In this document: positions 4,201 through 24,891 of the stretch, piece by piece
How positions within the stretch are numbered: the stretch's first letter is position 1
Layout: each line of letters starts with the position of its first letter
Notes under the pieces: model-generated
What the model saw: the letters and a program-made list of their open reading frames with translations, nothing else
What the model was told of the DNA's origin: nothing
Databases searched by the model: none
Assembly: GCA_946803715.1 (NCBI GenBank)
Contig: CAMPET010000218.1
Coordinates: forward strand, 94,498 to 119,388
Length of the DNA stretch: 24,891 bases
DNA from: Beroe ovata
Taxonomy: Eukaryota; Ctenophora; Nuda; Beroida; Beroidae
Direction of reading: 5' to 3'
Position numbers and translations under genes: made by a program

Positions 4201-7200
4201 GCACCGTGTCAAATGCTCTGACTATTCTACTATTCCAACCTACCTCACCTTCAGGTGGATGCTAAAGTCGAGGCAGATGTGGACTTCAAAGGCCCAAAAC
4301 TCAAAAAACCTTCCTTCAAAATGCCTAAGTTCGGAGGCAAAGTGAAAGGTGATATTGATGTGAAAGCACCGAGTATTGAGGGAGACCTTGATGTGAAGGC
4401 TGATGTTGATGTACCTGAGGCAGATGTTAAGGTAAAATCACCAAAAGCGGATGTAGATATGGATCTGAAAGGTGATGTTGATGTTGACGTCAAGAAACCA
4501 AAGGTGAAAGCATCATCCTCATTCAAAATGCCCAAATTTGGAGGCAAGGTGAAAGCTAAGTCTCCTGAGGTTGATGTGGATGTCAAGGGACCGGATGCTG
4601 ATCTCGGTGGTGATATGAAAATGGGTGGAGATCTTGACTTGAAAGGAGATGTTGATGCCGATGTTGATCTAGATGTCAAGGGCAAGACGCCAAAGGGAGG
4701 ATTTGGCTTTGGACTCAAGATGCCTAAGTTCCATGGACCTGACTTTGGCGGTTCTGGCAAGGCAGACCTTGATGTGAAGACACCCAACATTGAGGGAGAC
4801 CTTGATGTCAAAGCCGATATTGATGTGCCTGATGTTGATATGGATTTGAAGGCACCCAAAGCTGATGTGGATTTGGATGCTGATGTTGATGTTGATGTCA
4901 AGAAACCAAAGGTAAAAGCATCATCGTCATTCAAAATGCCCAAATTCGGAGGGAAGGCTAAAGTTAAGAAACCAAGTGGAAGTCTCAGTGGTAGTCTCAG
5001 TGGAAGTGGAAGTATACATGGCTCAATTGATGCTGATCTTGACATCAAAGGGAAAAAACCGAAGAAGAAGGGTAGTTTCAATCTTGGACTCAAAATGCCT
5101 CACTTTGGTGGTTCTGGTAAGGCAGATCTTGATGTGAAGACACCAAGCATTGAAGGAGATCTTGATGTCAAGGCTGATGTTGATGTACCTGATGTTGATT
5201 TGAAAGTGAAAGCTCCCAAGCCAGATGTTGATGTCGATCTTAACGTTTCAGCTGATGCTGATCTTGATCTAGATGTGAAGGGCAACAAGCCAAAGGGAGG
5301 ATTTGGTTTTGGACTCAAGATGCCCAAGTTCCATGGTCCAGACTTTGGTGGTTCTGGCAAAGCAGATCTAGATGTGAAGACACCAAGCATTGAAGGAGAT
5401 CTTGATGTCAAGGCTGAAGTTGATGTACCTGATGTTGATGTAAAAGTGAAAGCTACCAAGCCAGATGTTGATGTCGACCTCAACGCTTCTGCTGATGCTG
5501 ATCTTGATCTAGATGTGAAGGGCAAGAAACCGAAGGGAGGATTTGGTTTCGGTATCAAGATGCCCAAGTTTCATGGTCCAGATTTTGGTGGTTCTGGGAA
5601 GGCAGATCTTGAGGTGAAGACACCAAGTTTTGAAGGAGATCTTGATGTCAAAGCTGATGTTGATGTACCCGATGTTGATGTGAAAGTGAAAGCTCCCAAG
5701 GCGGACGTCGATTTGGATCTCGGAGGAGACGCTGATGTTGACCTGGATGTCAAGAAACCGAAAGTGAAAGCATCATCTTCATTCAAAATGCCGAAATTTG
5801 GAGGCAAGGCTAAAGTTAAGAAACCAAGTGGAAGTCTCAGTGGCAGTCTTAGCGGAAGTGGAAGTTTACATGGCTCAATTGATGCAGATCTTGACATCAA
5901 AGGTAAAAAACCGAAGAAGAAGGGCAGTTTCAATCTTGGACTCAAAATGCCTCACTTTGGTGGTTCTGGTAAGGCAGATCTTGATGTGAAGACACCCAGC
6001 ATTGAAGGAGATCTGGACGTCAAGGCTGACGTTGATGTATCTGATGTTGATGTGAAAGTGAAAGCTCCCAAGCCAGATGTTGATGTTGATCTTAACGCTT
6101 CAGCTGATGCTGATCTTGATCTAGATGTGAAGGGCAAGAAGCCGAAGGGTGGATTTGGTTTTGGACTCAAGATGCCCAAGTTCCATGGTCCAGACTTTGG
6201 TGGTTCTGGTAAGGCAGATCTTGATGTGAAGACACCCAGCATTGAGGGAGACCTTGATGTCAAGGCTGATGTTGATGTACCTGATGTTGATGTGAACGTT
6301 AAGGCCCCGAAAGCTGAAGTTGATGCTGATTTAGATATTCATGGCAAGAAGCCAAAATTCAAGGGACCTTCATTGAAAATGCCAAAATTCAAAGGGAAGA
6401 TGACGGGCCCGGAAGGCAGCCTGAGTGGAAGTCTCAGCGGTAGTCTGAGCGGAAGTGGAAGTCTACATGGCTCAATCGATGCTGATCTTGACATTAAAGG
6501 CAAAAAACCAAAGAAGAAGGGCAGTTTCAATCTGGGATTCAAGATGCCTCACTTTGGTGGTTCTGGCAAGGCAGATCTTGATGTGAAGACACCAAGCATT
6601 GAAGGAGATCTTGATGTCAAAGCTGACGTTGATGTGCCTGATGTTGATGTGAAAGTGAAGGCACCCAAGCCAGATGTTGATGTCGATCTTAACGCTTCAG
6701 CTGATGCTGATCTTGATCTAGATGTGAAGGGCAAGAAGCCAAAGGGAGGATTCGGTTTTGGTATCAAGATGCCCAAGTTCCATGGTCCAGACTTTGGTGG
6801 TTCTGGAAAGGCAGATCTTGATGTGAAGACACCCAGCATTGAAGGAGATCTTGATGTCAAAGCTGACGTTGATGTGCCTGATGTTGATGTGAAAGTGAAG
6901 GCACCCAAGCCAGATGTTGATGTCGATCTTAACGCTTCAGCTGATGCTGATCTTGATCTAGATGTGAAGGGCAAGAAGCCAAAGGGAGGATTCGGTTTTG
7001 GTATCAAGATGCCCAAGTTCCATGGTCCAGACTTTGGTGGTTCTGGAAAGGCAGATCTTGATGTGAAGACACCCAGCATTGAAGGAGATCTTGATGTCAA
7101 GGCTGATGTTGATGTACCTGATGTTGATGTTAAGGTGAAGGCTCCCAAGGCGGACGTCGATTTGGATCTCAAAGGAGACGCTGATGTTGACATTGATGTC

Positions 7201-10200
7201 AAGAAACCAAAAGTGAAAGGATCATCGTCATTCAAAATGCCCAAATTTGGAGGCAAGGCCAAAGTAAAGAAACCAAGTGGAAGCCTCAGTGGTAGTCTAA
7301 GTGGGAGTGGAAGTCTGCACGGCTCAATTGATGCAGATCTTGACATCAAAGGTAAAAAGCCGAAGAAGAAGGGTAGTTTCAATCTGGGACTCAAAATGCC
7401 TCACTTTGGCGGTTCTGGAAAGGCAGATCTTGATGTGAAGACACCCAGCATTGAAGGAGATCTTGATGTCAAGGCTGATGTTGATGTGCCTGATGTTGAT
7501 GTGAAAGTGAAAGCTCCCAAGCCAGATGTTGATGTTGATCTCAACGCTTCTGCTGATGCTGATCTTGATCTAGATGTGAAGGGCAAGAAGCCAAAGGGTG
7601 GATTTGGTTTTGGACTCAAGATGCCCAAGTTCCATGGTCCAGACTTTGGTGGTTCTGCAAAGGCAGATCTTGATGTGAAGACACCCAGCATTGAAGGAGA
7701 CCTTGATGTCAAAGCTGATGTTGATGTGCCTGATGTTGATGTGAAAGTGAAAGCACCCAAGCCAGATGTTGATGTTGATCTTAACGCTTCAGCTGATGCT
7801 GATCTTGATCTAGATGTTAAAGCCAAGAAGCCGAAAGGAGGATTCGGTTTTGGTATCAAGATGCCCAAGTTCCATGGTCCAGACTTTGGTGGTTCAGGTA
7901 AGGCAGATCTTGATGTGAAGACACCCAGCATTGAAGGAGATCTTGATGTCAAGGCTGATGTTGATGTACCTGATGTTGATTTTAAGGTGAAGGCTCCCAA
8001 GGCGGACGTCGATTTGGATCTCAAAGGAGACGCTGATGTTGACATTGATGTCAAGAAACCAAAAGTGAAAGGATCATCGTCATTCAAAATGCCCAAATTT
8101 GGAGGCAAGGCCAAAGTAAAGAAACCAAGTGGAAGCCTCAGTGGTAGTCTAAGTGGGAGTGGAAGTCTGCACGGCTCAATTGATGCAGATCTTGACATCA
8201 AAGGTAAAAAGCCGAAGAAGAAGGGTAGTTTCAATCTGGGACTCAAAATGCCTCACTTTGGCGGTTCTGGAAAGGCAGATCTTGATGTGAAGACACCCAG
8301 CATTGAAGGAGATCTTGATGTCAAGGCTGATGTTGATGTGCCTGATGTTGATGTGAAAGTGAAAGCTCCCAAGCCAGATGTTGATGTTGATCTCAACGCT
8401 TCTGCTGATGCTGATCTTGATCTAGATGTGAAGGGCAAGAAGCCAAAGGGTGGATTTGGTTTTGGACTCAAGATGCCCAAGTTCCATGGTCCAGACTTTG
8501 GTGGTTCTGCAAAGGCAGATCTTGATGTGAAGACACCCAGCATTGAAGGAGACCTTGATGTCAAAGCTGATGTTGATGTGCCTGATGTTGATGTGAAAGT
8601 GAAAGCACCCAAGCCAGATGTTGATGTTGATCTTAACGCTTCAGCTGATGCTGATCTTGATCTAGATGTTAAAGCCAAGAAGCCGAAAGGAGGATTCGGT
8701 TTTGGTATCAAGATGCCCAAGTTCCATGGTCCAGACTTTGGTGGTTCAGGTAAGGCAGATCTTGATGTGAAGACACCCAGCATTGAAGGAGATCTTGATG
8801 TCAAAGCTGATGTTGATGTACCTGATGTTGATGTGAAAGTGAAAGCTCCCAAGCCAGATGTTGATGTTGATCTCAACGCTTCTGCTGATGCTGATCTTGA
8901 TCTAGATGTGAAGGGCAAGAAGCCAAAGGGTGGATTTGGTTTTGGACTCAAGATGCCCAAGTTCCATGGTCCAGACTTTGGTGGTTCTGCAAAGGCAGAT
9001 CTTGATGTGAAGACACCCAGCATTGAAGGAGATCTTGATGTCAAAGCTGACGTTGATGTACCTGATGTTGATGTGAAGGTGAAAGCTCCCAAAGCTGACG
9101 CTGACCTTGATCTAGATGTGAAAGCAAAAAAGCCGAAAAAGCCTAGAGGAAGTTTCAATTTCGGTCTCAAAATGCCTCACTTTGGTGGTTCTGGAAAGAC
9201 AGATCTAGATGTGAAGACACCCAGCATTGAAGGAGATCTTGATGTCAAGGCTGATGTTGATGTACCTGATGTTGATGTGAAAGTGAAAGCTCCCAAGCCA
9301 GATGTTGATGGCGATCTTAACGCTTCAGCTGATGCTGATCTTGATCTGGATGTGAAGGGCAAGAAGCCAAAGGGAGGATTTGGTTTTGGTCTCAAGATGC
9401 CCAAATTTGGTGGAAGTGGAGGAGGACATATCGATGCTGGCGTTGATGTGAAGGCACCAAGTGTTGATGCTGATCTTGATGCAAAAGTTGACGATCCTGA
9501 AGTCAACGCAGATGTGAACCTTGATGCAGATGTCGATGTTAAGCCCAAAAAACCAAAGGGTAGTTTTTCTCTTGGAATGAAGATGCCCCATTTCAAGGGT
9601 AAAGCCAAAGGACCTGAGATAAATGGCAGCATTGATGGAAGTCTAAACGGAGACATCAGTGAGCCTGATGTGGACATAGAAGTTCCAAGAGTGAAAGCGT
9701 CCGGTCCTGACATTGATGCTGATGTAAATCTCAATGCTAGTGCTGATGTTGACATCAAGAAACCAAAAAAGAAGTTCTCCTTCAAGATGCCCAGCAGGGG
9801 AAAAGTGAAGGGTCCTGAGATAAATGGTAAGGGAAGTGCCAAGGTGCCTGATGCTGATATAACTGTTGGAGCTGCAATTGGTGGAGACATAGATGGCCAA
9901 TTCTCAGACGATAGCTCAATTAGAAGTGGTGGTCTTTGTGTTCCATCTAGAAAATCGAAGAAACCAAAAGTGAAAGGAGGTGCATCTTTGTCTGTCGATA
10001 AGCCAAAGAAGTCCAAGAAACTTGGTGGTCTTGATCTGAACGTTCAGAAAGCATCACCAGATGTAGATGTCAAGATTGGTGGGGATATCAAGAAAAAGGG
10101 TATCAACGGCGATGCTGACATTGATGCAAATATTGGTGGTAAAGTTGGCGGAGACGTTTCGCTAGGAGGAGGGGCTGGTGCTGGTGTTGGTCTTGGAATC

Positions 10201-11778
10201 GGTTTGAAGGGCAAGAGGAAAGGATCAAAGAGCTCATCATCTTCTTCGAGCGATGATTCTAAGAAGAGGAAAGCTGGCTTTGGTATTGGTTTGAGTGGAC
10301 CGGATCTTGATTTGAGTTTGGGTGGGGGAGCCAAAGGCTCAGTCGATGGACCTGATATGAAGGTCAATGGCAAGGGTGGTATCTCTGGTGACTTAGGTGG
10401 AGGTATAGATGTTAACGCTCCTGATGTTAAAACATCTGGAGATGCTGATCTTGGAGGTGGTATTGGCCTGAATATCGATGCTGGTGTTTCAAAACCAGAT
10501 GCTGATGTGTCTGGCGGTATTGGTGGAGGAATCGGTGGTGGTCTGGATATAAGCCGAAAGAAGAAGAGCTCATCTTCAAGTGACAGCTCATCAAAGAAGA
10601 AGAAAGCTGGATTCGGTTTCGGATTCAATGGACCCGATCTGGATCTGAACCTTGGTGGTGGAGCCAAAACAGAAGCTCCAGATGCTAACCTTGGTGGTTC
10701 TGTTGGATTATCAAGTGACATTGGAGGAGATGTGAAAGTAGATGCTCCATCAGTCAAAGCCTCTGCTGGAGGAGACTCCGGTTTTGGAGGTGGTCTGGGA
10801 CTAGGAGGGGGAATCAGGGGTGATGTAGAAGCTCCCAAAATCGACACTGACGTTTCCCTTGGTGGTGGTGGAGTAGACAGTGACCTCAATCTTGGAGGTG
10901 GCATCGGGGGAGGAGTCAGTGGAGGTGCTGACATTGATACACCCTCAGTCGGTGGTGGATTCGGAATCGGTTTCGGCAAGAAATCGAAGAAATCCTCTGG
11001 TTCATCGTCAGATGATTCCAAGAAGAAGAAGAAGAAAGGAGGATTCGGTTTCGGACTTGGGGGCGGTGCTGATGTCGACCTCAGTTTGAAGAAGCCAGAA
11101 GCTGACATCGATGTTGGTGGTGGAATTGGTATTGGTGGTGGAGATGGTATTGATGCCGACATCGATGTTCCAGAACCAGAAGTCAAAGTGAAAGCAGGTG
11201 CACCAGATATTGGTGGAAGTATTGGAGGTGGTGCTGGAATTGGAGGTGGACTGAGCCTGGGTGGAAGTGCAGATGTCGAAGCACCAGAAGTCAGTGGGGG
11301 ACTCGATATTGGTAGCGGAGGCGGACTTGGAGGTGGATTGAGCCTGGGTGGAAGTGCAGATGTCGAAGCACCAGAAGTCGGTGGCGGACTCGATATTGGT
11401 GGTGGAGGTGGACTTGATGGAAGTGCTGGTGGTGGCATGAATTTAGGTGGTGGAACTGGTGGTGACATCAGTTTAGGTGGCGGAATCAGCGCCGATGCGC
11501 CAAAACTTGACACCGGAAATTCTGGTGTATCCATTGGAGGTGGTTTTGGTGCCGGAGGTGATGCTAGTGGTGACGCAAGTGGTGGTTTCAACCTGGGAGG
11601 AGGCATCAGTTTGGGTAAGAAAAAGAAGAAGAATAAGCGAAGGAAGAAGAAATCACACTCTTCTTCATCATCGAGCTCCTCATCAAGTTCCTCATCAAGT
11701 TCCTCATCATCATCAAGCTCATCATCTGATTCCGATAGTGACTCTAAGAAGCAGAAGAAGGATAAGCAAACGCGTTAG
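1068..11778 (+). CDS. AHNAK-like giant repeat protein, 3' part of gene (five exons, 5' end missing)
   Basis: Spliced coding exons read 1068-1217, 1349-1585, 2039-3757, 4090-4130 and 4255-11778, about 3,220 residues in all. Every border has GT/AG and the reading frame stays open across all four introns (131, 453, 332 and 124 bp). The protein is almost wholly repeats of alternating acidic and basic strands (DVDVKAPK, KGPEVDV, LKMPKF), as in the central repeats of vertebrate AHNAK/desmoyokin, a large scaffold at the cell cortex and membrane. Family knowledge suggests a structural or scaffolding role; nothing in the window shows a PDZ domain or a catalytic domain. The start codon and N-terminus lie upstream of the window or in exons I could not find at 1-1067. 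It could instead be a lineage-specific protein that converged on AHNAK-like composition. Confidence 0.82.
1349..1585 (+). CDS. AHNAK-like gene, internal exon (phase 1 to phase 1, 79 codons)
   Basis: The acceptor TTTTTCAG precedes GTGGTAAT and the donor is ATAG followed by GTAAGG. The encoded segment holds GIGFGFGKKKGGSSSDEGKK and a second GFGFGLGG block. The SSSDE cluster beside a Lys run resembles a casein kinase 2 site and recurs in the next exon. Borders again split a Gly codon, so this exon can be skipped or duplicated without a frameshift. Confidence 0.78.
2039..3757 (+). CDS. AHNAK-like gene, repeat exon 1 (573 codons, about five 107-aa repeats)
   Basis: The acceptor is ATTCTCAG, with GT TGG GAA following; an upstream in-frame ATG at 2026 lies inside the acceptor tract and is unlikely to be a start. 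The donor is GATATTG followed by GTGAGT. The exon encodes about five tandem repeats of roughly 107 residues. Each contains, in order, VPDVEAGVDIDIKGPEVDV, a KAPKPKGGFSFGFGGKKGK block, an SSSDDE cluster, a Lys run, GFGFGFG, and PDVDLDLKAKGD leading into LPKGEVGIDVPEPSL. Repeat four has a shortened Ser/Lys segment. The exon ends in a diverged repeat richer in FDFGLKGKGD. It is phase 1 at both ends like its upstream neighbours. Confidence 0.85.
4090..4130 (+). CDS. AHNAK-like gene, 41-bp linker exon
   Basis: This small exon follows TTTTCAG and ends before GTGAGTG. It encodes GGDIDAGIKVPSGD (the first Gly completed from the previous exon). It changes the intron phase from 1 to 0, which is needed to join the symmetric phase-1 exons to the phase-0 terminal exon. 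The whole open frame closes correctly only when it is included. Confidence 0.7.
4174..4201. repeat. Two direct copies of a 14-bp near-palindrome
   Basis: CATTTAGATAAATG occurs twice head to tail in the last intron of the AHNAK-like gene. Each copy is itself a palindrome apart from its two central bases. It is probably a slippage product. Confidence 0.8.
4255..11778 (+). CDS. AHNAK-like gene, 7.5-kb terminal repeat exon (2,507 codons)
   Basis: The exon begins at GTGGATGCTAAAGTC after CACCTTCAG and stays open to the TAG at 11776-11778. Residues 1 to about 1,750 alternate two modules. Module A is about 80 aa with KTPSIEGDLDVKADVDVPD, then KAPKPDVDVDLNASADADLD and KMPKFHGPDFGG. Module B carries SSSFKMPKFGGK, SGSLSGSLSGSGS and GSIDADLDIKGKKPKKKGSF. 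The KFHGPDF signature occurs 11 times and the SGSLSGSGS block five times. From about 9400 the repeats become irregular. From about 10100 the protein is glycine-rich (GGGIGG strings) with KKKSSSSSD-type clusters and GFGFGFN blocks. The C-terminus is a Lys/Arg-rich stretch, then a run of about two dozen serines, SDSDSD and KKQKKDKQTR. Long open frames on the opposite strand are a codon-usage by-product. Confidence 0.9.
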   Translation: MDAKVEADVDFKGPKLKKPSFKMPKFGGKVKGDIDVKAPSIEGDLDVKADVDVPEADVKVKSPKADVDMDLKGDVDVDVKKPKVKASSSFKMPKFGGKVKAKSPEVDVDVKGPDADLGGDMKMGGDLDLKGDVDADVDLDVKGKTPKGGFGFGLKMPKFHGPDFGGSGKADLDVKTPNIEGDLDVKADIDVPDVDMDLKAPKADVDLDADVDVDVKKPKVKASSSFKMPKFGGKAKVKKPSGSLSGSLSGSGSIHGSIDADLDIKGKKPKKKGSFNLGLKMPHFGGSGKADLDVKTPSIEGDLDVKADVDVPDVDLKVKAPKPDVDVDLNVSADADLDLDVKGNKPKGGFGFGLKMPKFHGPDFGGSGKADLDVKTPSIEGDLDVKAEVDVPDVDVKVKATKPDVDVDLNASADADLDLDVKGKKPKGGFGFGIKMPKFHGPDFGGSGKADLEVKTPSFEGDLDVKADVDVPDVDVKVKAPKADVDLDLGGDADVDLDVKKPKVKASSSFKMPKFGGKAKVKKPSGSLSGSLSGSGSLHGSIDADLDIKGKKPKKKGSFNLGLKMPHFGGSGKADLDVKTPSIEGDLDVKADVDVSDVDVKVKAPKPDVDVDLNASADADLDLDVKGKKPKGGFGFGLKMPKFHGPDFGGSGKADLDVKTPSIEGDLDVKADVDVPDVDVNVKAPKAEVDADLDIHGKKPKFKGPSLKMPKFKGKMTGPEGSLSGSLSGSLSGSGSLHGSIDADLDIKGKKPKKKGSFNLGFKMPHFGGSGKADLDVKTPSIEGDLDVKADVDVPDVDVKVKAPKPDVDVDLNASADADLDLDVKGKKPKGGFGFGIKMPKFHGPDFGGSGKADLDVKTPSIEGDLDVKADVDVPDVDVKVKAPKPDVDVDLNASADADLDLDVKGKKPKGGFGFGIKMPKFHGPDFGGSGKADLDVKTPSIEGDLDVKADVDVPDVDVKVKAPKADVDLDLKGDADVDIDVKKPKVKGSSSFKMPKFGGKAKVKKPSGSLSGSLSGSGSLHGSIDADLDIKGKKPKKKGSFNLGLKMPHFGGSGKADLDVKTPSIEGDLDVKADVDVPDVDVKVKAPKPDVDVDLNASADADLDLDVKGKKPKGGFGFGLKMPKFHGPDFGGSAKADLDVKTPSIEGDLDVKADVDVPDVDVKVKAPKPDVDVDLNASADADLDLDVKAKKPKGGFGFGIKMPKFHGPDFGGSGKADLDVKTPSIEGDLDVKADVDVPDVDFKVKAPKADVDLDLKGDADVDIDVKKPKVKGSSSFKMPKFGGKAKVKKPSGSLSGSLSGSGSLHGSIDADLDIKGKKPKKKGSFNLGLKMPHFGGSGKADLDVKTPSIEGDLDVKADVDVPDVDVKVKAPKPDVDVDLNASADADLDLDVKGKKPKGGFGFGLKMPKFHGPDFGGSAKADLDVKTPSIEGDLDVKADVDVPDVDVKVKAPKPDVDVDLNASADADLDLDVKAKKPKGGFGFGIKMPKFHGPDFGGSGKADLDVKTPSIEGDLDVKADVDVPDVDVKVKAPKPDVDVDLNASADADLDLDVKGKKPKGGFGFGLKMPKFHGPDFGGSAKADLDVKTPSIEGDLDVKADVDVPDVDVKVKAPKADADLDLDVKAKKPKKPRGSFNFGLKMPHFGGSGKTDLDVKTPSIEGDLDVKADVDVPDVDVKVKAPKPDVDGDLNASADADLDLDVKGKKPKGGFGFGLKMPKFGGSGGGHIDAGVDVKAPSVDADLDAKVDDPEVNADVNLDADVDVKPKKPKGSFSLGMKMPHFKGKAKGPEINGSIDGSLNGDISEPDVDIEVPRVKASGPDIDADVNLNASADVDIKKPKKKFSFKMPSRGKVKGPEINGKGSAKVPDADITVGAAIGGDIDGQFSDDSSIRSGGLCVPSRKSKKPKVKGGASLSVDKPKKSKKLGGLDLNVQKASPDVDVKIGGDIKKKGINGDADIDANIGGKVGGDVSLGGGAGAGVGLGIGLKGKRKGSKSSSSSSSDDSKKRKAGFGIGLSGPDLDLSLGGGAKGSVDGPDMKVNGKGGISGDLGGGIDVNAPDVKTSGDADLGGGIGLNIDAGVSKPDADVSGGIGGGIGGGLDISRKKKSSSSSDSSSKKKKAGFGFGFNGPDLDLNLGGGAKTEAPDANLGGSVGLSSDIGGDVKVDAPSVKASAGGDSGFGGGLGLGGGIRGDVEAPKIDTDVSLGGGGVDSDLNLGGGIGGGVSGGADIDTPSVGGGFGIGFGKKSKKSSGSSSDDSKKKKKKGGFGFGLGGGADVDLSLKKPEADIDVGGGIGIGGGDGIDADIDVPEPEVKVKAGAPDIGGSIGGGAGIGGGLSLGGSADVEAPEVSGGLDIGSGGGLGGGLSLGGSADVEAPEVGGGLDIGGGGGLDGSAGGGMNLGGGTGGDISLGGGISADAPKLDTGNSGVSIGGGFGAGGDASGDASGGFNLGGGISLGKKKKKNKRRKKKSHSSSSSSSSSSSSSSSSSSSSSSSDSDSDSKKQKKDKQTR
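6601..7080. repeat. Perfect 240-bp tandem duplication inside the coding exon
   Basis: Bases 6601-6840 and 6841-7080 read the same at every position I compared line by line, and each encodes one 80-residue module A. The absence even of silent differences, where other copies of the module differ at many third positions, indicates a very recent duplication or gene conversion. Confidence 0.93.
7048..8804. repeat. Near-identical 852-bp tandem duplication (284 aa) inside the coding exon
   Basis: The sequence from about 7048 is repeated at +852. Through about 7952 versus 8804 I saw only a handful of differences, one of them changing Val to Phe at about 7982 (GATTTTAAG against GATGTTAAG). The same 852-bp step separates the module B anchor GATCTTGACAT at 5032/5884, 6481/7333 and 7333/8185; the step 5884/6481 is 597 bp. 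It is thus a higher-order unit of one B and several A modules. Confidence 0.92.
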
Positions 11779-13238: not shown

Positions 13239-13840
13239 TCTCTGACACCAGTCTGCTCTCTGACACCACTCGTCGCTCTGACACCACTAATAGCTCTCTG
13301 ACACCACTTTCTTCTACTCTCTGACAACACTTTTTGCTAATTCATCTGACACCACCCTTATGGCACCTCTATTTCTCTGACACCAATTAGCTCTCTGACA
13401 CCACTCTGCTTTCTGACACCGCTTATAGCTCTCTGACANNNNNNNNNNNNNNNNNNNNNNNNNNNNNNNNNNNNNNNNNNNNNNNTGCTCTCTGACACCG
13501 CTTATAGCTCTCTGACACCACTTTCTTCTCTGACACAACTCTAACCTCTGACACCACTTTACTCTTTGACACCACTTCGCTCTCTGACACCACTCTCTAC
13601 TCTGACACCACTTTGCTCTCTGACACCACTCTGCTTTCTGACACCGCTTATAGCTCTCTGACACCACTTTCCTCTCTAACACCATTATTAACACTGACAC
13701 CGCGATACTCTCTATCATATCATCACTTTTCGCTCTTACACAACTTTTCGCCGCAACATCACTCTATTCTCTGGCACCACTCTTCACTCTGACTCAACTT
13801 TTCGCTCTGCCAAACTCTTCAAGCTCTGACTTCAAGTGTG
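13239..13840. repeat. CTCTGACACCACT minisatellite, about 16-18 bp unit, with assembly gap
   Basis: More than twenty copies of a unit like CTCTCTGACACCACTTT run across the segment, degenerating after about 13710. Some copies carry CGCTTATAG as a longer block that recurs on both sides of the gap and again at about 13640, pointing to a higher-order repeat. The minus-strand open frame through it (WCQRAK-type repeats) is just a translation of the 18-bp period. Confidence 0.92.
13439..13485. other. Assembly gap (47 Ns)
   Basis: The run of Ns interrupts the minisatellite. The flanks are themselves repeat copies, so the true length of the array is unknown and may have collapsed. Confidence 0.99.
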
Positions 13841-14416
13841 GCATATCACAGTTCACAACTTTTTATGTTAATTCGATTGTATATCTTGTCGACACTTCTT
13901 CACGTCATAGCACAGGCATCTGCCTCAATTTTCTGTCAACTTCTTGACATTCCTATATCTCCAAAATTCTAATTTCTCCTTAGGGTTACTTCTGGCATTC
14001 ATTTCTCACGGTATTTGTAATAGGTACTGATGGTGAAACGGCATCATGAAAGTAGACATGAACATGGTAAAATAATCTAGGTGATAGTTAACATTGTTGC
14101 AACTGATCATTTCATAGTCATATCATTCTGGAGTCATTCTTTCCTTCATTTTAACTGATTAGATTGTTTAGGGAACCAGCTTCATTATCAATATCATATA
14201 GATGAGCATTGAGCAATAATTCTTCATCAGAAATTTAGAAAATCATAGCTTCTTTGCTTCCGAAAACAGTCTAGGATGATCCATACACTTAGATCTTCCC
14301 TTCAACCAATCAGAATCGTTTAAACTCAGCTCAGTTAGTGAGCATTTAGTGAATTAATTGATTAATTGACTGAGTCCAATTTAGAATGCTTACAACTGGC
14401 GAGGTAACGCTTTATC

Positions 14417-14503: not shown

Positions 14504-17482
14504 TCAAATATCGGTCCCGTTTTTGAGCAGTAGTACCCTTGATCCATTTCTCGAGTGTCCTTTCTTGAAAGTCGCTACCACATGATCTCTGCTCCCGCTC
14601 TCTGATGAGCCTGAACCTCGTTGGTACGGCGAATCTGATCCTCTTGCTGAGAAGTGAGGGGAATCTTGTAACCCTCTCGCTGAAAACTGGGAATCTGACC
14701 CGGTGTGAATGTGTCCATGTCCTCGATTCCCCAACAAACTATCTGATGAGCTGTTGAAAACATCCATTTCTTGAGCAAGGAGGTGCTGGGGTCGGACAAA
14801 CACCCGGGCTAGACTTGGTGACCCTGCAGCATGCTGGACCGTATGCCGACGCCCATTTCGGTCGAATATCCTCGGGGCAGTTCCCGCCCGTGACATTGGC
14901 GGGGTCATAAACGGGTTGAACTTGTGCGGGTTGTTTGTTTTCGGCGGGGCTGCCGTGTTGGGCGGGAGAGTGCTGCTCTTTCTGCCTGTCCCCGGGGTTG
15001 AGAATCCCGGGGGAGGAGTACCCACTGGGAGCGTGCGGGCTCGGGATGGGACTGGCGGGGGAGGAGGGCGAGATGGTTTGGCGGGCTTTGAAATGTTGTT
15101 CATACTGTTGCTGTTGGGCAGGTTTGTGCTGTTGTGAAGAGGGTTGAGTGGGATGTTGTGGCAGCTGGAAATGGTGTTGCATCCACTGTTCTCCTTGATT
15201 TGAATTGGAAATTTGTGACCGGAGAATTTGTTGTTGGGTGAGCTATTGTTGCTACTCGAATTGGAGTTGTTGTTGAAATTAGCGGTGTTGTTGTAGTGGA
15301 AATTAGGAATGTTGTTACAACTCGAAAACTTGTGGAAACTAGCTATATTCCCACAACTTGACTGCATATTATTGCACCGGGATATTGTGTTACAATTCGC
15401 CACACTTCCTGCGATATTCCGCCCTATCTGAATCGTATGACTCCGACCATCATTCATGAACCTCGGATCTTGGTGAAATGAGGTCAGCTGGGGCTCCGTG
15501 ACACTCCGCGGGTCTTGTTGGAAGGAAGTGAAGGGTGCCTCCTGACACATAGACCGGTCAAACTGTTCACTGGGGTACGTGAACTCATCCTGGTCTCGGA
15601 ATCGTGGAGTTGACACCATGTACGATGGTGTGGATTCCGAGGACTGGGATCGGTGGCGGTAGCTGCGATTCAGATGGATTGTGCTCCCTTGATCGTGATT
15701 CGAGAATTGTTCCATCAGCTCGCTGATCAGTCTCCTCCTCTCCCTCCCTGGATTGGAGGTTGATTTGATCGAAGACGATGATTTCAATTTGTCCCGATAA
15801 GAGCTCAACAAATTCCCCCGATCATCGTCTTTACCCTTCTTATCCTTTCTCTTCCAACAACAGATACACTTGCAGCACTTCTGTAGGATGCCCATGACTT
15901 TCAGAACCTTGAGTACAATCCCGATAACGGTAAGAATACCGATTATCTCCGTTGCCATGATGATTCCTTCCTTCCAATTTGAAATCCCGTTGAACCATTC
16001 CGCTGGGTTCAGATGTTTTGCCCACGTTGCTGGGGAGAAAATACTCATCTTCTCCCCCTTCTTGTAATCAATCGAGGAATCGGGAAGTTCGAATTCCTCC
16101 AGGGGTTTCCGGTCACACATCACGGTTTTACACCGCATATTCTCAGCCCCGGTATCTGTGTAGAGGCATAGCGTGGCTTTTTCATCCTCCTTACAAATAG
16201 CGCTGACCCTAATGATGTAGGATTCCTTAGCGACTTCCTTATGAGCATCCATATTTATCTTGATAACATCGGTATTTTCTTCAGAAACCTTTTCGTCATC
16301 TGTATCGACAGTCAAGTTACCCGTGATACTACCCCTCCCGTCATAGATTGTAACATTGATGAAATAATTCGAGTGCTTGTCCATCATGACCGCTCCGTCA
16401 AAATCAGCGAAATGCGAGACATCAAATTCCTGAACCACCTCGTAATCCCCATTCAGAGTAATCGTGATATCAATGTTGCTGTATTGCCGGAAATGCGTTT
16501 CCACCCTCCGATCTTCGTCCATTCGTATAATTTTCGACAGCGAAGCTTTGTAAAGATGATTCAACTCGTTCTGATGATCGAACTTGTCATTCGTGTATTT
16601 GTTGTTAAACTGAACATTCAACTCGTCCTTGTCACAATTATGCACGTCCACGCTAAACGACTCCAAAATCTCATTTTCATCCATCTCATATTCCTCTCGA
16701 ATGTATTTATACCACCCCAGTTTTTGCGTGTCATACTCACTCAGACCATTAATCTGAGCACCTCCGTACAGTTTATCCCCGAGTTTAGGTCCGTAATACC
16801 ACCCTGGATAGAGAGATGATTCTATAGCTGGAGCATTGATCGTGAGATAAAACGGCTCGGTTATCGGATGACCCCCCTCTATGTCCACTTCTGTTGTTTT
16901 AGATTTTTGGGTGCTCAGGTTAGTCACGGTGAAAACAGCTCTGTTCGCCCCATTCCCCAACTCTATGGCTCTCCAAATGGTCTTGTTCGCAGGTGACACA
17001 GTGATACTGCAGCACACTTGCGAGCTACCTGTGAGAAACGATACGCACCCTGGTGTGCCGAGGTTGCTACGATACCAGTTTATGCACGTGCCTTGGGGTG
17101 TGTATTTGCTGTCTTTGCACGTGTCCGTGTTTGGGTTACAGAAATCCTCGGCTCCCGGACAATCACAGATACACTTGACATCCGTTTTCGGAATCCCAAA
17201 TAGGTAAGAGTTCTTGTACTGTAGGATACTCTTCACATTATCCAACGAAATCCCGTAGACCTCCCCCTCTAACTGCCACGTACTTTTCAGGGAAAAACAC
17301 GCTGTTTCCTTAAGTCCGAGCGAGATTGTGACGAGGGTCTGGGGCTTTTCCTCGCCCGTCACCCGGTCTCGGGTTAGGGTCCTCTTGTGATGGATAGGCG
17401 GAGATTTGCTACAGATGATGGAATGAGCCACAAGGAGAAGTGTGGAGAGGAGAAGGGAGAGAAGGAGGAGGTGGGTTGACAT
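14504..17482 (-). CDS. Candidate EFF-1/AFF-1-family cell-cell fusogen, single-exon type I membrane protein with long cytoplasmic tail
   Basis: The frame opens at 17578, but I choose the ATG at 17482 because it begins a textbook signal peptide (MSTHLLLLSLLLSTLLLV), giving 992 aa. Residues about 20-505 are extracellular. They include a cysteine-rich segment with CICDCPG (104-110), a C-x14-C spacing, CINWYR (133-138), PGC and a CC pair (157-158), then a W-x-AIEL motif, and several N-x-S/T sites. A hydrophobic span at about 506-532 is followed by CCKCICC and KRKDKKGK, a likely palmitoylated, positive-inside border. The tail of about 460 residues is Ser/Asn-rich with a RPPPPPVPSRA SH3-type motif (about 805). 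The C-x-C-x-C-PG and CC pattern, membrane topology and ectodomain size match the EFF/AFF family, whose members fuse somatic cells in nematodes and resemble class II fusion proteins. I assign the family from remembered pattern, not alignment. HAP2/GCS1 or an unrelated receptor remain alternatives. No intron is needed across about 3 kb. Confidence 0.68.
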   Translation of the reverse strand: MSTHLLLLSLLLSTLLLVAHSIICSKSPPIHHKRTLTRDRVTGEEKPQTLVTISLGLKETACFSLKSTWQLEGEVYGISLDNVKSILQYKNSYLFGIPKTDVKCICDCPGAEDFCNPNTDTCKDSKYTPQGTCINWYRSNLGTPGCVSFLTGSSQVCCSITVSPANKTIWRAIELGNGANRAVFTVTNLSTQKSKTTEVDIEGGHPITEPFYLTINAPAIESSLYPGWYYGPKLGDKLYGGAQINGLSEYDTQKLGWYKYIREEYEMDENEILESFSVDVHNCDKDELNVQFNNKYTNDKFDHQNELNHLYKASLSKIIRMDEDRRVETHFRQYSNIDITITLNGDYEVVQEFDVSHFADFDGAVMMDKHSNYFINVTIYDGRGSITGNLTVDTDDEKVSEENTDVIKINMDAHKEVAKESYIIRVSAICKEDEKATLCLYTDTGAENMRCKTVMCDRKPLEEFELPDSSIDYKKGEKMSIFSPATWAKHLNPAEWFNGISNWKEGIIMATEIIGILTVIGIVLKVLKVMGILQKCCKCICCWKRKDKKGKDDDRGNLLSSYRDKLKSSSSIKSTSNPGRERRRLISELMEQFSNHDQGSTIHLNRSYRHRSQSSESTPSYMVSTPRFRDQDEFTYPSEQFDRSMCQEAPFTSFQQDPRSVTEPQLTSFHQDPRFMNDGRSHTIQIGRNIAGSVANCNTISRCNNMQSSCGNIASFHKFSSCNNIPNFHYNNTANFNNNSNSSSNNSSPNNKFSGHKFPIQIKENSGCNTISSCHNIPLNPLHNSTNLPNSNSMNNISKPAKPSRPPPPPVPSRARTLPVGTPPPGFSTPGTGRKSSTLPPNTAAPPKTNNPHKFNPFMTPPMSRAGTAPRIFDRNGRRHTVQHAAGSPSLARVFVRPQHLLAQEMDVFNSSSDSLLGNRGHGHIHTGSDSQFSARGLQDSPHFSARGSDSPYQRGSGSSESGSRDHVVATFKKGHSRNGSRVLLLKNGTDI

Positions 17483-17646: not shown

Positions 17647-18444
17647 CACACTATAGTTATTAGTTACGGAGCTCGGAGATTCGCGGGAAGTTTTTAACAT
17701 TTGACGCAACATTTGATGACATGGCTTCCCCCTACCGCTCCTTACATGTCCTTTTTGTGTAAAGCCCTACACTGCGGTAGTAGTATACGGGATATGAAAA
17801 ATGAAAACACAAAAATGTAACGTGATTATGAATATCATATACCGCGAGGTAGAACGACAGCCAAACAATTCACAGCTACTAGACCAACTGCAAAGTAAAA
17901 CGTCGCTCAGGAGCAGTAAACTAGAAAGCTTGACCAAATCTGCATTGCTTGCGAAGAGTAGTATACTTTTTTCAAGCACACCGAGGATTCAGAAACGTCA
18001 GCATATATCCAGATATGTCAAATCCCTACCGCTCTGTGAACATATCATCAGAGTTACAGTCAAGATGATGTCATCGTGACTTAACCCACGCACACACGCA
18101 CGCTTTTTCAAACGGAGAGAGATCTATTTTTAGAACTTCGTCTGCAGTTTGTTCGTCAAATTGAAATAATTAGAACCAAAATTCAAAATCAGCACGTGGT
18201 CACTGGTCAGCGCGATTACCGAAATAACAAACATAGCATACATACATACATATCACCATGGATACACGCAAATTCTACGTGTACCAGGAAAATTTCTGCG
18301 CTAGTAGTACTCGTATAATATGGATATCAGACTCAACTAGGTGGTGAAAGCTGCAACATGTTGTGCGGCTTCGCTGTATTGCGCGTTTTTGACAACATGT
18401 TCTTGAAGCGCGCCCGGTGTTGCTAGGCGAGAGAATGGGAGTGG

Positions 18445-22355: not shown

Positions 22356-23094
22356 GTATCACCTGGTGGTACAACTCGATTGTCGGCGAAGATATTGCTC
22401 AGTGTTGCTGATCGACATTTCTATTTCGCCACGCTTCTCAATATGATATGATCCCCTTTTCAATTTCACGTTGAATTTCAAACTTTACAACTTCATGACA
22501 CACGCACACAAAAAACCAAACAACTTCTCTCAATTTGAGTTATACCGCACTCAATCGACAGTTATGAAATTGTTTGGTTATCGACAGCTAATGAAATTGT
22601 TTGGTTTTGATCTAATCTCAAATCAAATCGAGATGAACTTGCTTTACAGACACCGAAAATATGGACTGAACTTTGGCATGGGTTTAAATCTTAATCATCC
22701 ACAATGAAAGTTTGCTGCGACTTTTTCTAGACCAGCTTGACTGACTGAGTTTTCATTGTTATGATCCAATAATTCTATGATGGTCTTTATGTCCCCGTGT
22801 GCCCCCAGGGACATCAAGATTCAGGTGTCCGTCATCAAGTTCATATCGGCACAAGTGAGATCAGACATCACACTCTCCCTTCATATTCCAGCAATTCCTG
22901 ATATGAGATATCTCGAAAAATATAATTGGCTCTCTTCACATTCATTACAATTACCGTATATCTCGAAAAAAAAAGTATTTGGTGGACAGAAAAATCAATA
23001 CATGGCTCCGTATAAGGATTCAGCTTTATCATTTTCTACAGTGCAATAATACAGTGTATAATGACTTTGATTCATGATACTTTGTATTTTGCAG

Positions 23095-24891
23095 GTCTTC
23101 TCACGACAGGAGTGAATTTCTTTCCGACTTACAACAATGAAGTAGAGATGCATGTAGGGGAGTGTACCATTACTGGACTCTCGCCATCGGAAAACACCGC
23201 CCTCCAGATAACACCCAGATATGGAGCAGGGACACCGTGCTTATTCCAGTTTACCTCGGACACTTTCTCTGCTGGAAATTGTGATTCTGGTAGTAGTGAC
23301 TATCAGTTTGAGGGCACAGCGGAAGGTGTGAAGGTTTCCTACTTCGGTATAGAAACAGCAGAGTTTGTATGTGAGGCGGGTGTGATGGATACTACTAATA
23401 GTGGCGCGGGTCATCAGTCGGTTTCTGAGGAGTTCCAGGTTCACGAGAGACGGCTCCTCAGCTTTGAGGCACTGAGTGAGTGCATTTTATACTCAAATGA
23501 TACTCACCCACCCTTGTTTTCGCCGCCGAGTACCGAGTGTCTGCCGACCTAGTGTCCTATATTCTCAAATAATTCTCACTCGAATACTACAGTTGCTCTT
23601 TTGTGTGTCAATCAAACGAATGAGATGCAAAATGTGGTAGAATTCTTAGCAATTTTAAGATGAATACGATGGATAACTAAAGTCCCCCTTCATTTATATC
23701 CACTCTCCAATTCTCCGTAACATATTTTATAACCCCAACCCCCCCTCCCCTCCAATCCAGAGAATGCCTCTCTTTACACCGCTATCTCCGCAGGATGGAA
23801 AATCTCCTATGACGAACCGGTGGGGTATGAGGGAGGGATTCCCTATTTCGAGAGTCAGCCAAAGTCCGTCAAATTCAAAGTACTGGGTGATGAGGGCTTC
23901 CCAGTCATTGACACCAGCACGATAAGTCTGACTATCTCCTTCGCTAATGAAGATAGCTCTGTATCTTGTGTCGGTTTAATATGGGTTTGTTTACTGTGGT
24001 TGTATCTTTTAGGCGGTTCTGTGGGTTCCACGGGATTTTATTTCATATACCTATTCCATGAATTTGTACGATCGGTAGAACGCTATTGTCATTAATTGAC
24101 AAGATAGTGAAACGATTCACACAACTGTGACACAATACGGATTCACGAAAATATATTGTTTTCAGTCTCCTGTTCTCACGGAAGTTGATTGGTCCGGATG
24201 TGTTGGCGGAATCACATCTCGAACCGTGCTTTCTGTAGTTGGAGGAAGGATAGTCTTTAACACCGAAAGTGGAAGTTATGGACATCTTTCTCTTTTCTCC
24301 GTTTATGACAAGCCGCGGTTCCCTGTGATAGTGTATCGTGAGTAATCCCAACACCCAGAACATCGGGTTGGAGTGCCATTTTATGAGTAGATTAATTGGA
24401 TGAGTATTGAGTAGATTAGAATATCATTTGGAAAGGTTGGTTTGATGGTTTGAATTTTCATATTTCGATATTTTCAGCTAAGTGTGACGCTGGATTATAC
24501 ATCAAAGGGAATGAGTGTGCTGCGTGTGAGCGAGGTTTGGGATATATCTGATAGGTCACTGCAGTGAGGTCACTGTAGTGAGGTCACTGTAGTGAGGTCA
24601 CTGTAGTGAGGTCACTGTAGTGAGGTCGCTGTAGTGAGGTCGCTGTAGTGAAATCACTGTAGTGAAATCACTCTAGCTAGAATTTGATCATTGAAGTTGC
24701 ACCCTACGCCAAATTGCTGGGGCTCAAGGATTCATTATTTTTGTCATATGACACCCATTGCGGAATTCTCCTTGTTTAGGAGTGAGAGAGGACACGCAGA
24801 ATCAGTTGTTTGGATGCCAGGCGTGCGATGTAGGCCGCTGTCCCTCTGAAAATAGAGATGCGTGTGTAGATCGACCCCCTGGACAGGTACA
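23095..24891 (+). CDS. Multi-exon extracellular cysteine-rich protein, internal part (5' and 3' ends missing)
   Basis: Five exons join in frame: 23095-23475, 23761-23984 (or ending 23960), 24166-24337, 24478-24534 and 24780 to the edge, where CAG|GTACA may be another donor at 24887. Intron phases are 1, 1, 0, 1, 1. The first three exons encode a beta-rich, unrecognised region (NNEVEMHVGECTITGL; DEPVGYEGGIPYFES; TEVDWSGCVGGITS). The last two encode PKCDAGLYIKGNECAACERG and then CQACDVGRCPSE, whose spacing resembles GCC2/GCC3, ephrin-receptor-like or TNFR-type Cys repeats of secreted and cell-surface proteins. No membrane segment is visible in the part present. An exon at 22809-22854 (CCCCCAG acceptor, GTGAGA donor) could precede it, since its end phase fits, but the start codon and signal peptide were not found. 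Function is unknown. Confidence 0.72.
24553..24678. repeat. 14-bp minisatellite, nine copies, in an intron
   Basis: Nine consecutive units of AGGTCACTGTAGTG, with the last two changed to AAATCACT-. The first copy contains CACTGCAGTG, a perfect 10-bp palindrome; the others are one base from it. The array fills half of the 245-bp intron between the two cysteine-rich exons. Confidence 0.93.

Follow-up and report, generated by a model that had tools for sequence, protein, structure and literature searches.

The window analysed here is a 24,891-nucleotide stretch of the Beroe ovata genome (GenBank assembly GCA_946803715.1, contig CAMPET010000218.1, positions 94,498 to 119,388 of the forward strand), and the gene under study is a minus-strand coding frame at 14504..17482. 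On profile and alignment evidence this gene is a true member of the EFF-AFF family (Fusion Family), and we consider it probable, at about 0.75, that its product is a ctenophore class II cell-cell fusogen of the EFF-AFF type; the genome has four such loci, this one included. A ctenophore member of this family is not in itself new (PMC4723337, in excerpt). The new point is the hydrophobic tip of domain II, to which a four-gene family is added. No account of the chemistry of the ctenophore tip or of a multi-gene ctenophore family was found in the literature, which was accessible in part, and prior mention in Avinoam 2011 or Perez-Vargas 2014 is possible.

Family membership and predicted fold

The Pfam EFF-AFF profile (PF14884) matched the window protein in hmmscan with E 4.7e-57 over all 467 model positions, at a score of 194.1 bits against a curated Pfam cut-off of 25. 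The HAP2-GCS1 profile gave no match to it at E up to 1. Plain sequence comparison with phmmer retrieved the C. elegans EFF-1A of the PDB at E 2.6e-24. This PDB search returned no viral protein, no dedicated viral sequence search having been run. All 14 cysteines of EFF-1 from C40 to C499 were aligned in the window protein, whereas C525 and C528 were without counterpart. An extra cysteine pair (C430 and C456), absent from EFF-1, was present in 12 of the 12 alignment rows of the ctenophore type, a label that we use for the EFF-AFF proteins of this genome together with the relatives P0002-P0013. The window protein also differs from EFF-1 in its much longer tail and in its intronless coding frame. 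The comparison with the EFF-1/AFF-1 system was made by name with EFF-1.

An AlphaFold2 model of residues 22-510, made from an alignment of 44 rows (in two of which, P0036 and P0055, the tip is visibly misaligned, while in P0012 it is missing), had a predicted local distance difference test score (pLDDT) of 78.6. Comparison by Foldseek and VIA-align showed that the fold nearest to this model was that of EFF-1, a class II fold of three domains. The HAP2 structure 5ow3 matched the model at a Foldseek E of 5.3e-14, which makes HAP2/GCS1 alike in fold while the profile sets it apart. The model was also similar to viral class II glycoproteins in structure comparison. Such viral proteins (phlebovirus Gc, for example) are part of a virus particle, whereas the window gene is one of four loci of an animal genome. 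Archaeal Fsx1 has a class II fold as well (PMC9259645, in excerpt). Beyond the nematodes, the Fusion Family is known from a few arthropods, a ctenophore, a chordate and a protist (PMC4723337, in excerpt). These are likened to the window protein by description only, the family being common to all and the phylum probably common with the ctenophore member.

The sequence-only reading had called the protein an EFF-1/AFF-1-like candidate fusogen and had suggested these profile and fold comparisons. It is supported by the profile, the pairwise sequence match, the conserved cysteines and the predicted fold, and neither a missing EFF-AFF match nor a fold unlike class II fusion proteins was seen. The gene and its protein are laid out as follows.

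14504..17482, minus strand: single-exon coding sequence of a predicted EFF-AFF family cell-cell fusogen, 992 amino acids (open frame, Pfam and PDB matches)
17420..17482, minus strand: signal-peptide-like stretch, residues 1-21 (hydropathy)
15968..17419, minus strand: ectodomain, residues 22-505, predicted class II fusogen fold (AlphaFold2 model, Foldseek, VIA-align)
15989..17320, minus strand: Pfam EFF-AFF match, residues 55-498, model positions 1-467 of 467 (profile match)
17159..17173, minus strand: CICDC (CxCxC) motif, residues 104-108 (sequence, alignment)
17009..17047, minus strand: domain II tip loop C146-C158, hydrophobic (F149-L150), aligned to the acidic EDD tip of EFF-1 (alignment)
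15983..16027, minus strand: juxtamembrane motif TWAKHLNPAEWFNGI, residues 486-500 (alignment)
15893..15967, minus strand: single transmembrane span, residues ~506-530 (hydropathy peak)
14507..15892, minus strand: long cytoplasmic tail, residues 531-992, of low complexity with short conserved motifs (sequence)
15026..15076, minus strand: proline-rich SH3-ligand-like motif, residues 803-819 (sequence)
14507..14518, minus strand: C-terminal GTDI, class I PDZ-ligand-like (sequence)

The frame runs from an ATG at 17482 to a stop codon ending at 14504, with no internal stop, and the coordinates and strand first assigned to it were correct. The CxCxC and PGC/CC cysteine motifs noticed earlier were both present, the latter as a PGC...CC module at residues 144-158. 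A signal-peptide-like stretch and one further span were likewise seen by hydropathy, the only strong peaks being at residues 1-21 and ~506-530. The protein fits a type I single-pass layout with an N-terminal signal-like stretch, and it shares this topology and the juxtamembrane LNPA.W motif with EFF-1. The proline-rich stretch of the tail was common to P0001-P0004, and the C-terminal ends were TDI in the window protein, SDV in P0002, SEL in P0003 and SDL in P0004, while P0005-P0010 were without a PDZ-ligand-like end. These motifs resemble the consensus sequences of SH3 and class I PDZ ligands.

The domain II tip and the mode of fusion

Viral class II proteins have a hydrophobic loop at the tip of domain II, whereas in EFF-1 this tip is strongly acidic and has EDD at positions 157-159 (PMC4050280, in excerpt). 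Addition of 22 to these positions gives the numbering of our EFF-1 entry, P0014. This puts the EDD between the EFF-1 cysteines C177 and C186, to which our alignment matches C146 and C157 of the window protein, and the tip loop of the latter reads VSFLTGSSQV. Each loop of P0002-P0010 has FL with G and S after it; residues F149, L150, G152 and S153 were invariant in ten of the ten rows formed by these proteins and the window protein. The tip loops of the paralogues are LWLGAETVS (C321), GLFSAMGSAEI (C55) and LMFTGSGQS (C145), and that of P0011 is GIGSILGSAEV. The tip was hydrophobic in all of the 14 ctenophore-type loops that could be read.

The search with EFF-1 gave 43 proteins, 39 of them named as nematode, and 37 had a loop that could be read by pattern. 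None of these 37 loops contained F, W or Y, each had at most two residues that were aliphatic or aromatic, and at least two acidic residues were present in 17. The aligned loop of P0040, one of the six that were not read, has M and L and no F, W or Y. Ctenophore-type tips are hydrophobic and 9-12 residues long, while the EFF-1 tip is acidic or polar and has eight. The window protein does not have the acidic or polar tip of the nematode members, which is a trait of EFF-1 and is not known to define the family. The contrast between ctenophore-type and nematode tips was consistent across the sequences sampled.

Fusion by EFF-1 and AFF-1 requires the protein in both membranes; for viral class II proteins one side is enough (PMC9259645, in excerpt). 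The hydrophobic tip suggests insertion into the facing membrane, a hairpin and possibly unilateral fusion. The window protein would lie in the plasma membrane and form a trimer, the greasy tip (F149-L150 and its equivalents) would enter the opposite membrane, unlike that of nematode EFF-1, and the trimer would fold back as a hairpin, drawing the two cell membranes together. The SH3- and PDZ-ligand-like motifs of the tail would position the protein at contacts rich in actin and scaffold. We propose a class II cell-cell fusogen whose tip would be a true fusion loop and which would act, perhaps, unilaterally.

Several points weigh against this proposal. Fusogen function is a prediction from sequence and model. 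The tip was aligned at ~20% identity, though conserved cysteines bracket it, and the ten-residue blocks that hold it had pLDDT values of 71 and 86 in the predicted model. A first model made from 10 close sequences only was poor (pLDDT 42.9), so the 44-row model leans on EFF-1-type rows, and EFF-1 itself was presumably in the AlphaFold2 training set. Many nematode tips are polar and not acidic (SPGSQSKL, for example), and several of the 37 loops are near-duplicates. The polar tip may also be a trait of nematodes only: the comparison covered ctenophore-type proteins and the largely nematode set found with EFF-1, and arthropod, chordate and protist members may differ.

The protein might instead be a bilateral fusogen like EFF-1, present on both cells and with a hydrophobic tip that has no membrane role. 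Its family and fold are those of EFF-1, and EFF-1 and AFF-1 do act bilaterally (PMC9259645, in excerpt), but the tip chemistry is consistently unlike between the ctenophore-type and nematode groups and viral class II proteins, whose loops are hydrophobic, work from one side; we regard this as a serious possibility, at rather less than even odds. A fusogen of gametes that replaces HAP2/GCS1, and not a somatic one, is unlikely. It would agree with the finding that HAP2-GCS1 was not matched in a profile search of this genome, but the same search found none in the control genomes, which makes it uninformative, and a multi-exon HAP2 could escape it.

A further alternative is that the class II fold was kept while fusion was lost, leaving an adhesion or recognition receptor with a fast-changing tail for signalling. 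A single span and a tail of 460 residues that bears motifs like SH3 and PDZ ligands would suit such a receptor, since the whole of EFF-1 (P0014) has just 658 amino acids, and so would the strong divergence of the paralogues, which are only 22-32% identical to the window protein. Conservation sits, however, in the ectodomain, including the juxtamembrane motif and the invariant hydrophobic tip, as expected if selection acts on membrane insertion, and we think a receptor of this kind rather improbable. Also improbable is an extension of the fusogen reading, in which the ctenophore proteins would be an expanded set of fusogens with a true hydrophobic loop that can act unilaterally, the polar and bilateral state of nematodes would be derived, and at least one of the set would join neurites into the syncytial nerve net.

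Burkhardt et al. (2023) left open whether the nerve-net neurons have been joined since division or whether their neurites fused, and cited an EFF-1 paper (PMC7617566, in excerpt). The proposed fusogen might act in the nerve net, in other syncytia, in wound healing or in gametes. The four-gene fusogen family supplies named candidates for this question, and the idea that ctenophore fusogens would build the fused nerve net is testable. The difference at the tip also makes testable the switching of class II cell fusogens between unilateral and bilateral action, and which of the two states is older.

Four loci and the intronless coding frame

A profile search of the assembly (77.8 Mb, 534 contigs) gave four PF14884 loci, on C218 (the window gene), C321, C55 and C145. 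Two of them are single-exon and two have introns: the C321 locus is one open frame of 641 amino acids, and the C145 and C55 genes bear introns in exon models made by eye (in that of C145, the last donor was taken as GC and the tail exon is unsettled). None of the mapped intron positions was shared between C145 (nine introns) and C55 (six), and the nearest pair differed by one phase and by two columns of the alignment; these introns might have been gained independently into an intron-poor ancestor. The C55 gene (~3261-6178 of L039, plus strand) lies between blocks of heptads like those of the RPB1 C terminus, 31 in all, on the opposite (minus) strand at 908-2805 and 6685-7370, and it therefore appears to be nested inside the gene for the largest subunit of RNA polymerase II.

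We built a tree from 14 of the 16 ctenophore-type rows, without the fragments P0012 and P0013, together with 16 of the 43 proteins retrieved with EFF-1. One branch with support of 100/100 parted the 14 ctenophore-type rows from the 16 nematode rows, and the window gene paired with P0002 (75% identity) at 100/100. The four paralogues grouped together on long branches, that of C321 being very long (4.73). The joins of C321 with C145 and of C55 with P0011, and those between the two main groups, are long-branch joins and may be false. P0013, a fragment of 401 residues, has the stem and span of the fusogen but another tail; it carries Pfam PF27934 in its database record and had no match in our Pfam scan.

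The 2979 bases of the coding frame of the window gene need no intron. P0002 (902 amino acids, on a contig of 216,869) and P0004 (829 amino acids, 63% identity, on a contig of 412,460) are each one frame from a signal-peptide-like start to a conserved end. P0010 is uninterrupted for 723 amino acids from about window residue 60 (contig of 117,876) and P0009 for 656 from about window residue 87 (contig of 118,926), an upstream intron being possible in both because the N terminus is absent from the frame. From their size, these four contigs appear to be genomic. On a contig of 17.6 kb, P0011 likewise forms a single frame, and it groups with the intron-bearing C55 by a long-branch join that may be false. 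For unannotated genomes the database may be biased towards single-exon copies, and it therefore gives no measure of how many relatives lack introns. The frames of P0007, P0009 and P0010 are without the first ~45 to 87 residues, which may reflect a 5' intron or a cut contig.

Because P0002 and P0004 are full-length single frames, the mostly intronless state of the window gene looks old and not that of a recent retrocopy. The sequence-only reading had offered retroposition, lateral acquisition or intron loss as its origin: recent retroposition is largely refuted, recent lateral gain is not needed, as the four paralogues group in the tree, and ancient retroposition or intron loss is possible. Nor does a single exon by itself point to a foreign source, since there are other long open frames in the genome (the 2507-codon frame to the left of the gene, two frames for glutamate receptors, 885 and 879 codons long, and an aminopeptidase-P-like frame of 556 codons beside C145). 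A recent retrocopy, a pseudogene or a laterally acquired gene would account for the lack of introns and for a direct repeat matching at 16 of 17 bases on both sides of the gene, at 14184 and 17825. The frame is, however, open and conserved up to its final residues, its close relatives P0002 and P0004 are likewise single frames over their full length on long contigs, and no poly-A tract was seen by eye in the 600 bases downstream. The flanking repeat is AT-rich and one among twelve families listed in that stretch. This reading is largely refuted, and we give it very little credence. The repeat itself (14184-14200 and 17825-17841) is probably due to chance and possibly an old target-site duplication.

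Neighbouring genes and other matches in the assembly

The neighbours of the gene had been described as having several introns. This was only partly right. The left one holds an open frame of 2507 codons (4255-11778, plus strand) with AHNAK-like repeats, in which a Pfam scan gave only matches resembling repeat noise. The right one (23061-24891, plus strand), at the contig end, is cysteine-rich and by eye looks split into several exons; one of its exons gave no Pfam match. An array of ~18-base units with the core CTCTGACACCACTT lies at 13507-13819, beside 47 N (13439-13485).

A COX1 (PF00115) profile search of the assembly gave no match. No Hox-type homeodomain was recognised among 30 of the 87 homeodomain matches of the genome, which were read by eye and not formally tested. 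Wnt matches were found on four contigs, that on C64 lying inside a frame of 6033 codons that is perhaps not a Wnt gene. These matches speak against a glass-sponge host, an idea prompted by the size of the genome, its single-exon genes and syncytial tissue, as Wnt is missing from O. minuta and A. vastus; the glutamate receptors speak against it too. The S1 half of a glutamate-receptor ligand domain on L041 scored 136.8 bits with ML032222a, 98.4 with 4zdm (which we take to be PbiGluR3) and 72.3 with the next, a kainate receptor, and the glutamate receptor on L043 scored 110.5, 81.3 and 61.3 bits with ML032222a, 4zdm and the next, NMDA 1. ML032222a is from M. leidyi and PbiGluR3 from P. bachei (PMC12226733, in excerpt). 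Both genes therefore score best with ctenophore receptors, which makes a ctenophore host very likely on sequence grounds, though these may simply be the closest ones in the PDB; epsilon receptors occur in other animals as well (PMC12226733, in excerpt).
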